Shown here piece by piece: positions 24,568-27,810 of a stretch of 64,000 bases of DNA; within the stretch, counting starts at the first letter, position 1; each line of letters begins with the position of its first letter. The translations under genes and the position numbers were made by a program. This stretch comes from Longimicrobium sp. Its GTDB lineage: Bacteria; Gemmatimonadota; Gemmatimonadetes; Longimicrobiales; Longimicrobiaceae. The notes beneath the pieces were generated by a model, which ran no database searches, was not told where the DNA came from, and worked only from the letters and a program-made list of their open reading frames with translations. Where the stretch lies: NCBI RefSeq assembly GCF_035474595.1, contig NZ_DATIND010000140.1, forward strand, positions 1 to 64,000. Reading direction: 5' to 3'.

Positions 24568-24735
24568 AGAAGCTACGGCGTAGCCCCTACAGTTATAGTC
24601 TTCTGCTACATAGACGTTCCTTCCCACATAAAGCAGAGTGGCTGATTAGAGAACATCGTTGTTGCTGACCCGTTTCCAATTTATGTTGGCAGCGTTATCG
24701 AAGCCCCGACCCTCTTCACCGCCAAGACCAAATAT

Positions 24736-26172
24736 ATGAACGGGCGACGCACTCCCCCCGGCATTCCTTCTGTCTTTAGAGGGACCACGGGGTACTTCCT
24801 GGCCGGCGTCGCGTGTACGTTAGCCGGATATGCACTTAAGCACGGGACCATGTTCCCTCGAGGAGAGGACTTAGCCTTTATTGGGCTTTTCTGGCTACTG
24901 CTCTTGGCATGCCTGACTAACCATGCCGCTCGTTATGAACAGCGCTCCGTCCGTCCGCGCGATATACCATCTTTGCACTCGTTATCGATTTACCTACCCG
25001 CGATGCTTGTTTTCGGGTTCTTCGTTCTTGCGTACCTTTATTATGCAGCGTACAAAGACGACTTGTTCAAGGACCCGCACTGGGTGGTAGTCCTTCTCGC
25101 GGCCTCAATTCCGTTCGGTGTCATCTCGGCCCACCGGACGATTCGACCACGTGACTCCGTGCTATTCACCTTCCGTGCGCGCTCGTACTTTCCAGCACTT
25201 GCAACCTGCTTGCCTGCCTTCAGCGTCGGATACTATCTACAAGCCAAGGAGGGTGTTATCCTCTTGGTCGTATCAGGAGTGCTCACCCTGACACTATGGT
25301 TTGCCTCGCTATGGCTTTCTGTAAAGGCAATATACGGGATCCAAGGGCTTCTATTACTGACCGTAATTGGTTTGTTCATGCTATTGCGGGTTGAGTGGAT
25401 CAGTGTTTGGATTCTTGGGATGTTCCTGACGCTCGCAATGGGTGTGTCCGAGGCTTGGCGGGTCACCACAAGCGTCCTTGCCGGGCTTGAATACCGGCCG
25501 AATGACAATTACTCCCTCAATGAACAGCGCTCGTTCTTGAGTGGAGCGAATGTGGCTACGGCGTTATTTTTGCCGCTTTTCCTTTCGACTTACCTGCACC
25601 TGCAGACCGAGTCGTCATACCTGCCGTTTGTGATGGTATGGTTACTTGCTGGATCGCTGGTTTGGTTCAGATACGGGAGTTCAGCAAACTACAGGCGAAT
25701 GAGTCTCTGGGCGGCCGTATTTGGGATCAGTCTGCCCTTGGAATTGGCTGTCGCGGCGCATATGAAGGGGGAGATAGCGTTGCCGGAACCGCCGTTGGCA
25801 TGCGTCGGCGGGATGTACTCGATCATGGCGGGATTGCTTGCGGTCGTCATGGGCGTCAGTCTCAAGACGCACAAGCAGATGCCTAGGACACAACAAGCAC
25901 TTGTCGAGCATTATGCGCAACCGAACAACGCCATCGCGCTCACTGGAGCTGTCTGCGGATTCTTCGCATTCGTCGGCTTGTTGTCGATAGTATTTGCCGG
26001 TGGCCCAAGCACCCGTTATGATCGTTTCAATTGGTTGATCCTGATTTACGTTCTGTTCGCAGCTGCAGCTTCTGGTTGGGCTTGGTGGGTAGCCCAGCCC
26101 GGGCCTAAGGAGGAGGCAGCCAATGCCACTCAACTACTTCCGCTGGCGGATGAAAATCCTCACCCTACTTAG
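24736..26172 (+). CDS. polytopic membrane protein, island gene 1
   Basis: 478 residues with about twelve hydrophobic segments spread over the whole chain (for example VACTLAGYALKHGTMF, LAFIGLFWLLLLACL, LPAMLVFGFFVLAYLYYAAY, VLLAASIPFGVISA). No transporter family motif recognised. The 3' end overlaps the UbiA gene by 50 bp in another frame, so the two are coupled. Codon use is AT-richer than in neighbours outside the island. It could be a partner of the prenyltransferase in a membrane lipid or glycan pathway. Confidence 0.75.
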   Translation: MNGRRTPPGIPSVFRGTTGYFLAGVACTLAGYALKHGTMFPRGEDLAFIGLFWLLLLACLTNHAARYEQRSVRPRDIPSLHSLSIYLPAMLVFGFFVLAYLYYAAYKDDLFKDPHWVVVLLAASIPFGVISAHRTIRPRDSVLFTFRARSYFPALATCLPAFSVGYYLQAKEGVILLVVSGVLTLTLWFASLWLSVKAIYGIQGLLLLTVIGLFMLLRVEWISVWILGMFLTLAMGVSEAWRVTTSVLAGLEYRPNDNYSLNEQRSFLSGANVATALFLPLFLSTYLHLQTESSYLPFVMVWLLAGSLVWFRYGSSANYRRMSLWAAVFGISLPLELAVAAHMKGEIALPEPPLACVGGMYSIMAGLLAVVMGVSLKTHKQMPRTQQALVEHYAQPNNAIALTGAVCGFFAFVGLLSIVFAGGPSTRYDRFNWLILIYVLFAAAASGWAWWVAQPGPKEEAANATQLLPLADENPHPT

Positions 26173-26965
26173 GGGCCTATGGGTATCCGGACGCCCGATC
26201 CACTCCGTCATTGCCGGTTGCGCAACCGGGGCTACCATCGCATTCCTTCCGGCGGCGATATGGTGGCCTGCGTTAGCAGCGGGATGTGCAATGACCTTTG
26301 TTACGATGGCGGGATTTATAATCAATGACATTTATGACAAGTCCAAGGACGCTCTGGCGTGTATCCAACGACCTGTAACAATAGGTCTAGTTACGCGGCC
26401 TCAGGGGATCATCGCGAGTGGGTTGCTAATTCTCATTTCACTTGGGCTCACACCGCTACATGGTAAGTCCATGGTGATCCTCTCTATCACTGCTGCATCT
26501 GTTATTCTCTATTCGTTTTTTGCGCGGCATTTCCCCTTGTTCAAAGGCCTCTATACGGCGTTATTGTGCTGTGCTCCCCTCTCCTATGGCGCAGCTGTGG
26601 GTGGTGGACAGTTCCCAAATACTGTCTTTGCCGCACTTGTACTATACATCTCCGGCAGAGAAGTGTACTTGGACATCCGCGACATTGAGGGCGACAGCCG
26701 ATTCGGCCTGAAAACTATTCCTGTCCTCATTGGTGTCGCCGCAGCACGAAGAATGGCAGTGATATTGATAGTGGTTGGAGGACTCTCTATGCTAGTTGTA
26801 GTTCGGTCTACACTCGGTTACCTACTAGCTTGCTCCTCTCTCCTGCTACTTGGCCTTGTACTCACGTGGCCGGGTCTGGAACTGCGGCGTCGCCTCCAAC
26901 TCACTCGTATGCCCATGTTCTTAGGGGCTTTGGCACTTGCAAGTACAGTGTGGACAGTCCAATAG
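26123..26965 (+). CDS. UbiA-superfamily prenyltransferase, island gene 2
   Basis: 280 residues, eight or nine membrane helices. The two Asp-rich Mg/diphosphate motifs are present: NDIYDKSKDA (about 69-78) and DIRDIEGDSRFG (about 184-195), followed by LKTIPVLIG. These place it in the UbiA superfamily, nearest in look to geranylgeranylglycerol-phosphate/homogentisate-type members; the acceptor is unknown. The start is fixed by GGAGGAGG just upstream and lies 50 bp inside the preceding gene. The stop TAG directly abuts the next ATG. Confidence 0.88.
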   Translation: MPLNYFRWRMKILTLLRGLWVSGRPIHSVIAGCATGATIAFLPAAIWWPALAAGCAMTFVTMAGFIINDIYDKSKDALACIQRPVTIGLVTRPQGIIASGLLILISLGLTPLHGKSMVILSITAASVILYSFFARHFPLFKGLYTALLCCAPLSYGAAVGGGQFPNTVFAALVLYISGREVYLDIRDIEGDSRFGLKTIPVLIGVAAARRMAVILIVVGGLSMLVVVRSTLGYLLACSSLLLLGLVLTWPGLELRRRLQLTRMPMFLGALALASTVWTVQ

Positions 26966-27631
26966 ATGCGGTATCGACGCCTGACTCTGCCTCTTTCCGT
27001 TGTTGCGCTTCTCATCATCGTTCATTTCCTTAGCGCATACGGAGTAATCGTTCCGTCATCCGCAATAATTGAATTTTTAACAGACCGCCTCCGGTCGGGC
27101 AGTTTACTCCTTATCGCTACAATTTCGTTCTTCGAGGGCATGGTCGTATTTAACGCGTACTTTCCGGGGGGTGGAGTAATCCTGATTGCTATGGCTTCAA
27201 CATCAGGGAACTTTGAGCGCGCAATCCTTACCTTTACTGCTATCGTAATCGGCTCTGGTTTCGCTCATCAGCTGGATTATTGGGCTGGTCGGCTCCTAGG
27301 TAGCCGGAGTGGTGGTGTAGATAACGCAATGCCTACGCTTCTTGAGGCATTCGCTAGTTACTGGCATCCGCATTCAGGGTCGCTCTATTCACTTAGGTCC
27401 GGGTCGGACGGTTTATCGTACGCCCGGTTTGCCTTTCGGTTTTCTGTTGCCTTTGGTGTGTGGAATATCTTTTGGGGCGTCCTTATGTACCAATTGGGGC
27501 GTGTCCCGATATCAAGTTCAGAGTTATTGACACTCTTCTACTTCTATCTCGGATGGTGGACAATTCAAGAGCTTCGTCTGGTTCGAAGGGTTTCTAGGGA
27601 TTCGCGCACTTCAAGTAGAGAACCGCGATAG
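26966..27631 (+). CDS. DedA-like membrane protein, island gene 3
   Basis: 221 residues with about five membrane segments. FFEGMVVFNAYFPGGGVIL and SGFAHQLDYWAGRLLGS recall the DedA/SNARE-associated pattern (E..P.PG and G..LGYW.GR), but the match is partial. DedA proteins are linked to lipid flipping. The start codon follows the UbiA stop with no gap. Basic C-terminus (RLVRRVSRDSR). Confidence 0.65.
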   Translation: MRYRRLTLPLSVVALLIIVHFLSAYGVIVPSSAIIEFLTDRLRSGSLLLIATISFFEGMVVFNAYFPGGGVILIAMASTSGNFERAILTFTAIVIGSGFAHQLDYWAGRLLGSRSGGVDNAMPTLLEAFASYWHPHSGSLYSLRSGSDGLSYARFAFRFSVAFGVWNIFWGVLMYQLGRVPISSSELLTLFYFYLGWWTIQELRLVRRVSRDSRTSSREPR

Positions 27632-27810
27632 TCGCTTCTTTCAGAGGAGTCATTTGGCCTCCAGCTGCCTCAAGTCTGTGCAGATGATTCTTCCCTAACC
27701 ACACCAAACCTCAATGCAGCGGGCGCAGTGTGACAACGCTACGGCGACCCAAACCGAGAGGATCACTAATCTGTGCCCTCCCGGTTACCGGGCAGAGTTT
27801 GTTGAGCAAC

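Follow-up and report, generated by a model that had tools for sequence, protein, structure and literature searches.

A low-GC trio of membrane-protein genes, probably acquired at a recurrent insertion site behind thiC, in Longimicrobium sp.

Within the 64-kb stretch of Longimicrobium sp. DNA analysed here (the window), three genes on one strand, ORF1, ORF2 and ORF3, occupy an island of markedly different composition (Table 1). GC content is 52.7% in the island and 70.3% across the window, and the island is the lowest-GC 3.2-kb stretch that the window contains (z = -8.7), the next lowest non-overlapping stretch standing at 0.669. The borders coincide with the end of a displaced piece of thiC, fragment C (24567), and with the stop codon of an intact thiC gene (27811), bearing out the initial annotation, which had placed the drop in GC exactly between these two features. 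The tight packing that it had described was likewise confirmed by the coordinates, in that ORF1 and ORF2 overlap by exactly 50 bp, with AAGGAGGAGG preceding the ATG of ORF2, and the ATG of ORF3 directly abuts the TAG of ORF2.

Table 1. Features of the island and of the thiC region beside it, in window coordinates.
Feature	Coordinates	Strand	Remarks
Low-GC imported island	24568..27810	.	52.7% GC, flanked by thiC fragment C and the intact gene
ORF1	24736..26172	+	478-aa polytopic membrane protein, no recognised family
ORF2	26123..26965	+	280 aa, UbiA-type intramembrane prenyltransferase, both Asp-rich motifs intact
ORF3	26966..27631	+	221 aa, divergent DedA/VTT-like; profile of 8 DedA proteins
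Intact thiC	27811..29571	-	586 aa, CSMCGPKFC cluster motif at 520
TPP riboswitch preceding intact thiC	29707..29804	-	RF00059, 65.4 bits
thiC 3' fragment C	24137..24567	-	Displaced 3' end, open frame and cluster motif
thiC 3' fragment B	23011..23115	-	Older, 82%
thiC 3' fragment A	20366..20487	-	Older, 81%, with indels
TMEM175-family gene, cargo between fragments B and C	23352..24038	+	PF06736, E 8.3e-22
373-aa ORF, family unrecognised, cargo between fragments A and B	20498..21619	-	
Strong hairpin just past the fragment C stop	24077..24111 (approximate)	-	Resembles post-thiC hairpin in relatives

The first of the three proteins gave no significant family match in profile searches that included Pfam, NCBIfam and PADLOC, and no match in phages. 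A simple hydropathy scan of ORF1 found 15 partly overlapping hydrophobic segments, and the proposal of a 12-helix protein thus holds for its polytopic membrane character, the number of helices being a fair but inexact estimate. Single-sequence AlphaFold models reached a mean pLDDT of 46 for ORF1 and 47 for ORF3, and neither model was used in fold searches.

ORF2 had been read as a UbiA enzyme with both Asp-rich motifs, and this assignment is secure. The protein matches PF01040 with an E-value of 1.1e-24 and a score of 87.5 bits, passing the curated cut-off of 34.2, and its translation contains NDIYDKSKD and DIRDIEGD, the two Asp-rich motifs of the UbiA superfamily. The nearest solved structure is 6m31 (E 4.3e-9), a digeranylgeranylglyceryl phosphate synthase that ORF2 resembles in both motifs and in length. 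However, ORF2 falls below the cut-off for all 25 NCBIfam models shown, among them the equivalog for geranylgeranylglycerol-phosphate geranylgeranyltransferase (81.4 versus 296 bits).

The DedA-like character proposed for ORF3 is supported by a family-specific profile, though PF09335 (VTT) misses the protein at E 1, and no other Pfam family matches at E<=1. With a broad profile, made from 31 VTT proteins, ORF3 scored no higher than shuffled sequences. A narrow profile, built after the broad one had missed, comprises the eight proteins of the home bacterial family that are most like one DedA protein of the home genome; against it, hhalign gave a score of 42.6 (P 6e-6) over 133 columns, with a best score of 20.9 among 60 block shuffles, and hmmsearch gave 22.0 bits. 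Over those columns ORF3 is similar in profile to the DedA/VTT undecaprenyl phosphate flippases. Unlike them, it has a gap of 13 columns (about 13 residues) where its relatives carry the RF-P-xR segment, a stretch of functional weight in DedA/VTT proteins. A separate observation concerns DedA genes in the genus, one of which adjoins a tyrosine-recombinase gene in several genomes (G000:C121:931-2336 and its counterparts).

A foreign origin of the trio, as the initial annotation had suggested, is well supported. The composition points to it, as do the lack of the trio in every other genome searched and the anatomy of the insertion described below. ORF1 and ORF3 occur in the home genome and in none of the 394 other genomes of the phylum sample (1 of 395 in each case), and relatives of ORF2 in that sample reach 26-33% identity at most; homologues inherited vertically as neighbours in close relatives, which would have spoken against transfer, were thus not what was found. 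These absences, together with the strong GC break and scores short of the curated equivalog cut-offs (82.8 versus 269 bits), make it scarcely credible that the three are vertically inherited housekeeping genes for prenyl-quinones or ether lipids that happen to have an odd composition, even though the best-scoring UbiA profiles are those of a related prenyltransferase and of geranylgeranylglycerol-phosphate geranylgeranyltransferase. Such a reading forbids that the genus should lack these genes, and that is what was observed. The trio did not turn up in lower-GC phyla in a limited search. ORF2 drew one match, of 26% identity and from Bacteroidota, in a collection of genome contigs, and none in plasmids and viral contigs; furthermore, at 17 loci with distant UbiA genes, the neighbours, as far as the loci reach, include no ORF1-like protein (E<=1), match ORF3 only at E-values of at least 0.13, and give no match to the DedA profile. 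Since neither a donor of the trio nor a strain with an empty site was found, we infer the direction and source of the transfer only indirectly.

The surroundings of the island hold a record of further events. Four thiC 3' ends lie on one contig of the home genome in a single orientation, with none elsewhere in the genome, in the order intact thiC, then the island, fragment C, fragment B and fragment A. Fragment C, which is 431 bp long and about 92-93% identical to the 3' end of thiC, still has an open frame and the CSMCGPKFC motif, and a strong hairpin follows its stop codon. Folding of the 80 nt after each stop gave a clear signal for fragment C (z -4.4), a weaker one for intact thiC (z -2.0), and nothing distinct for fragments A and B (z -0.8 and -1.2). 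These structures are called hairpins only, because a terminator scan gave 4 terminator-like sites versus 7.1 in shuffles and was thus not above chance. The C-terminus of ThiC (window 27811-27900) consists, in most of the genus and in one further genome (G015), of a hypervariable stretch followed by a conserved EETVAAD-like tail, the residues of which are kept in G015 through synonymous changes. Other repeats in the window are of different kinds. Two diverged direct copies (69%), at 21925-22271 and 22326-22667, cover small paralogous genes of about 110 aa (MSQVVINQAGPLPI...), one of which was tested and has no Pfam match, and dispersed repeats of about 95 bp with 85-87% identity pair 2605-2700 with 10199-10294 and 2158-2252 with 54325-54417.

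Arrays of this type recur in relatives. A 190-base query from the thiC end was run against 21 family genomes, home included, and the thiC region was compared in 15 of these, the remaining six (G003, G010, G011, G012, G018 and G020) having weak or short matches only. Thirteen thiC fragments were found in eight of the 15 genomes, all eight belonging to one genus, which amounts to 8 of 9 same-genus genomes and 0 of 6 genomes of other genera; in the ninth same-genus genome (G002) the contig ends 2.3 kb after thiC. The fragments are about 95-460 bp long, and their 5' starts fall at many different positions in thiC. One of them, in G009 (L040 7186-7566), has an internal deletion that joins nt 439-608 to nt 1538 onward, and the duplication therefore once reached further upstream. 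In most arrays with at least two fragments the outer ones are more decayed, with a single exception (G001), where decay has gone further in the thiC-proximal fragment than in the distal one, contrary to a simple order.

The DNA between thiC and the fragments, 0.2-7.5 kb in length, differs among arrays. For instance, the cargo of G005 (L038 6305-13626) is a type I restriction locus that looks complete and has a SIR2-like gene lying between those for specificity and restriction, and that of G001 (L037 7219-8914) is a second low-GC unit (50.6% GC) encoding a small transmembrane protein and a ParA/MinD-like ATPase. In G005 and G006, common genes flank the array on both sides and the cargo inside differs. 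Beyond the fragments, or behind a fragment-free thiC, lie the candidate defence genes PDC-S11 and PDC-S02/Mrr, nucleotidyltransferases, and a radical SAM/methyltransferase pair. A small gene (...LTDAERAKLEQRRDRL...) was also seen close behind thiC in three genomes (L035 9301-9538, L037 5916-6185 and L034 10070-10255).

Taken together, the trio is best read as cargo gained by horizontal transfer, the 3' end of thiC forming a hot spot at which insertion has recurred, apparently without an integrase, a reading to which we give a probability of roughly 0.6. Such a history may have run as follows. DNA of a relative would arrive carrying its own thiC 3' end and the sequence behind it. Trimming would shorten the incoming thiC end, which would then be ligated to the opposite end of the same piece of DNA, or else an illegitimate joint would form at one end, and on this account the fragments start at differing positions in thiC because of that trimming or illegitimate joining. 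A single homologous crossover inside thiC would then insert the cargo and keep thiC whole, while a shortened and silent 3' end of thiC would be left on the far side of the insert; the event itself is reconstructed, and the anatomy it predicts is the one observed. Repeated rounds would build up an array, in which the outer fragments would decay.

Several lines of evidence bear on the enzymology. The two tyrosine recombinases of the home genome are encoded on other contigs, and serine recombinases (PF00239) are lacking from it; on the window's own contig PF00589 has no match at E<=1e-5. Nine of 10 genomes have ComEC-family genes, the one without being 76% complete. Furthermore, thiC itself is mosaic, with 3 of 10 permutation tests at p<=8e-4, and, judged by third positions, the home gene comes nearest at nt 1000-1330 to two genomes from other genera. 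In laboratory E. coli, as outlined in PMC3240628, a single crossover with trimmed, recircularised DNA produced gene-end duplications of 109-950 bp. Because the recombinases lie off the contig, ComEC is present, thiC is mosaic and the E. coli geometry is comparable, homologous recombination inside thiC combined with one illegitimate joint is favoured over a site-specific integrase. One observation counts against an integrase-free reading, as the array contig of G004 (C53) has a tyrosine recombinase some 14 kb away from the closer of its fragments.

The second-ranked explanation is site-specific integration, in which an integrase encoded elsewhere or since lost would use the last ~21 bases of thiC, and the fragments would be displaced copies of the attachment site. 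The terminal 21-nt core, GAGACGGTCGCGGCGGATTGA, is indeed the same in the intact gene and in fragments B and C, both of which cease to resemble thiC at its stop or one base later, and the core occurs within 3 mismatches at only one further place in the genome. The many starts of the fragments, their spread of lengths and the lack of any fixed-length direct repeat argue against it, as do duplications that extend 39-89 bp past the stop in G004, G006 and G009, the alteration of the core in several decaying fragments, and the case of G004, which is without the core yet has two fragments. Together with the scarcity of tyrosine recombinases in the home genome and their absence from the contig of the island, these features leave site-specific integration unlikely.

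A further alternative is duplication of the thiC end in tandem and in situ, with foreign DNA inserted later between the copies. Over its whole stretch, fragment C is nearer to its own intact thiC end (92.0%) than to the thiC of any relative (<=87.7%), as a local duplication would predict. The distribution of differences between fragments and living thiC speaks otherwise. Three of the 14 fragment rows tested show an excess at third codon positions: fragment C of the home genome, with 6/4/20 differences at the three positions (p 5e-4) and 21 synonymous against 8 other codons, G009a with 0/0/9 (p 1e-4), and G004x, presumed from its contig end to be thiC-proximal, with 0/2/14 (p 2e-5). Because a silent local copy would change evenly and these differences fall mainly at third positions, the sequences indicate that in three arrays each of the two copies was, until recently, the working end of a thiC gene in a lineage of its own. 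The sequences past the stops of fragment B, fragment C and intact thiC are, moreover, mutually unrelated, and duplication in situ is accordingly very unlikely. The bias appears in 3 of 8 thiC-proximal and 0 of 5 distal fragments; the other 11 rows, which have no third-position excess, give on their own no indication that the fragment came from another lineage, and even or undecided rows are expected of older or short pieces. Either of the two thiC ends could be the native one.

The thiC site can be compared with several known systems. ICEs and genomic islands integrate in the 3' ends of conserved genes, with the target end restored and the older end displaced, and the thiC site is like them in this outcome. 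It differs in that no integrase was found in or beside the island, that the repeats are of no fixed length, and that the cargo is only 0.2-7.5 kb. Oliveira et al. 2017 (PMC5635113) have described, in general terms, gene-turnover hot spots that are free of mobile elements and are driven by recombination in the core genes on their flanks. The thiC site shares with these the varied cargo beside a core gene (the same flanks with different cargo in G005 and G006), a home array free of integrases, and a mosaic flanking gene; set against that general description, it differs in leaving truncated core-gene pieces whose degree of decay allows them to be put in order. Restriction-modification genes of Helicobacter pylori have inserted with long target duplications (Nobusato et al. 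2000, as cited in PMC4978471 and PMC1643837), and there too cargo, often restriction genes, is flanked by a long direct chromosomal repeat. In the thiC arrays, unlike the H. pylori inserts as presented in those citing papers, the 3' end of a single housekeeping gene supplies every repeat, the copies are stacked, and some proximal copies show coding-type divergence. The E. coli conjugation integrants, in the account outlined in PMC3240628, likewise have gene-end duplications without an integrase; they arose under laboratory selection at lacZ, whereas thiC is a natural and recurrent locus. What is new relative to the known hot spots is the stack of thiC ends, ordered by decay in most arrays. A literature search returned no report of thiC as such an insertion site, which is weak evidence, as 'thic' also matches 'thick'.

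As to what the trio does, tight coupling of genes for three membrane proteins, one of them UbiA-type and one DedA-like, is the reason for proposing a role in prenyl lipids of the envelope. Tentatively, the three may form a translationally coupled envelope-lipid operon, in which the UbiA enzyme would prenylate an acceptor in the membrane, the VTT-like protein would scramble or flip the resulting product, and ORF1 would act as a transporter or membrane transferase. DedA proteins flip undecaprenyl phosphate, as described in PMC10127716. Alternatively, the trio could be an anti-phage or interbacterial-conflict module that acts at the membrane. The setting lends itself to this idea, as other thiC arrays and neighbourhoods hold the type I restriction locus with SIR2 and the PDC-S11, PDC-S02/Mrr and nucleotidyltransferase genes, making the hot spot rich in defence. 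A conflict role is nonetheless improbable, given that PADLOC models match none of the three proteins at E<=0.1, that UbiA is a family of metabolic enzymes, and that the TMEM175 and radical SAM cargoes are not defence-like.

A bolder and rather doubtful extension of the integrase-free reading is that the 3' end of thiC serves as a docking port for cassettes that are mobile only by virtue of the piece of housekeeping gene they carry. New arrivals would be stacked nearest to thiC, the fragments would stand as a record of events, and the trio would be a new envelope-lipid or defence system moved in this way.

Many hot spots of gene turnover are without integrases, and how they gain their cargo is unclear; here, the displaced thiC ends record the events. 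The mostly synonymous differences in three arrays make the mechanism directly testable. Furthermore, the thiC site can be searched for new defence and envelope genes, and the trio, two of whose proteins are without recognised close relatives, is one candidate.
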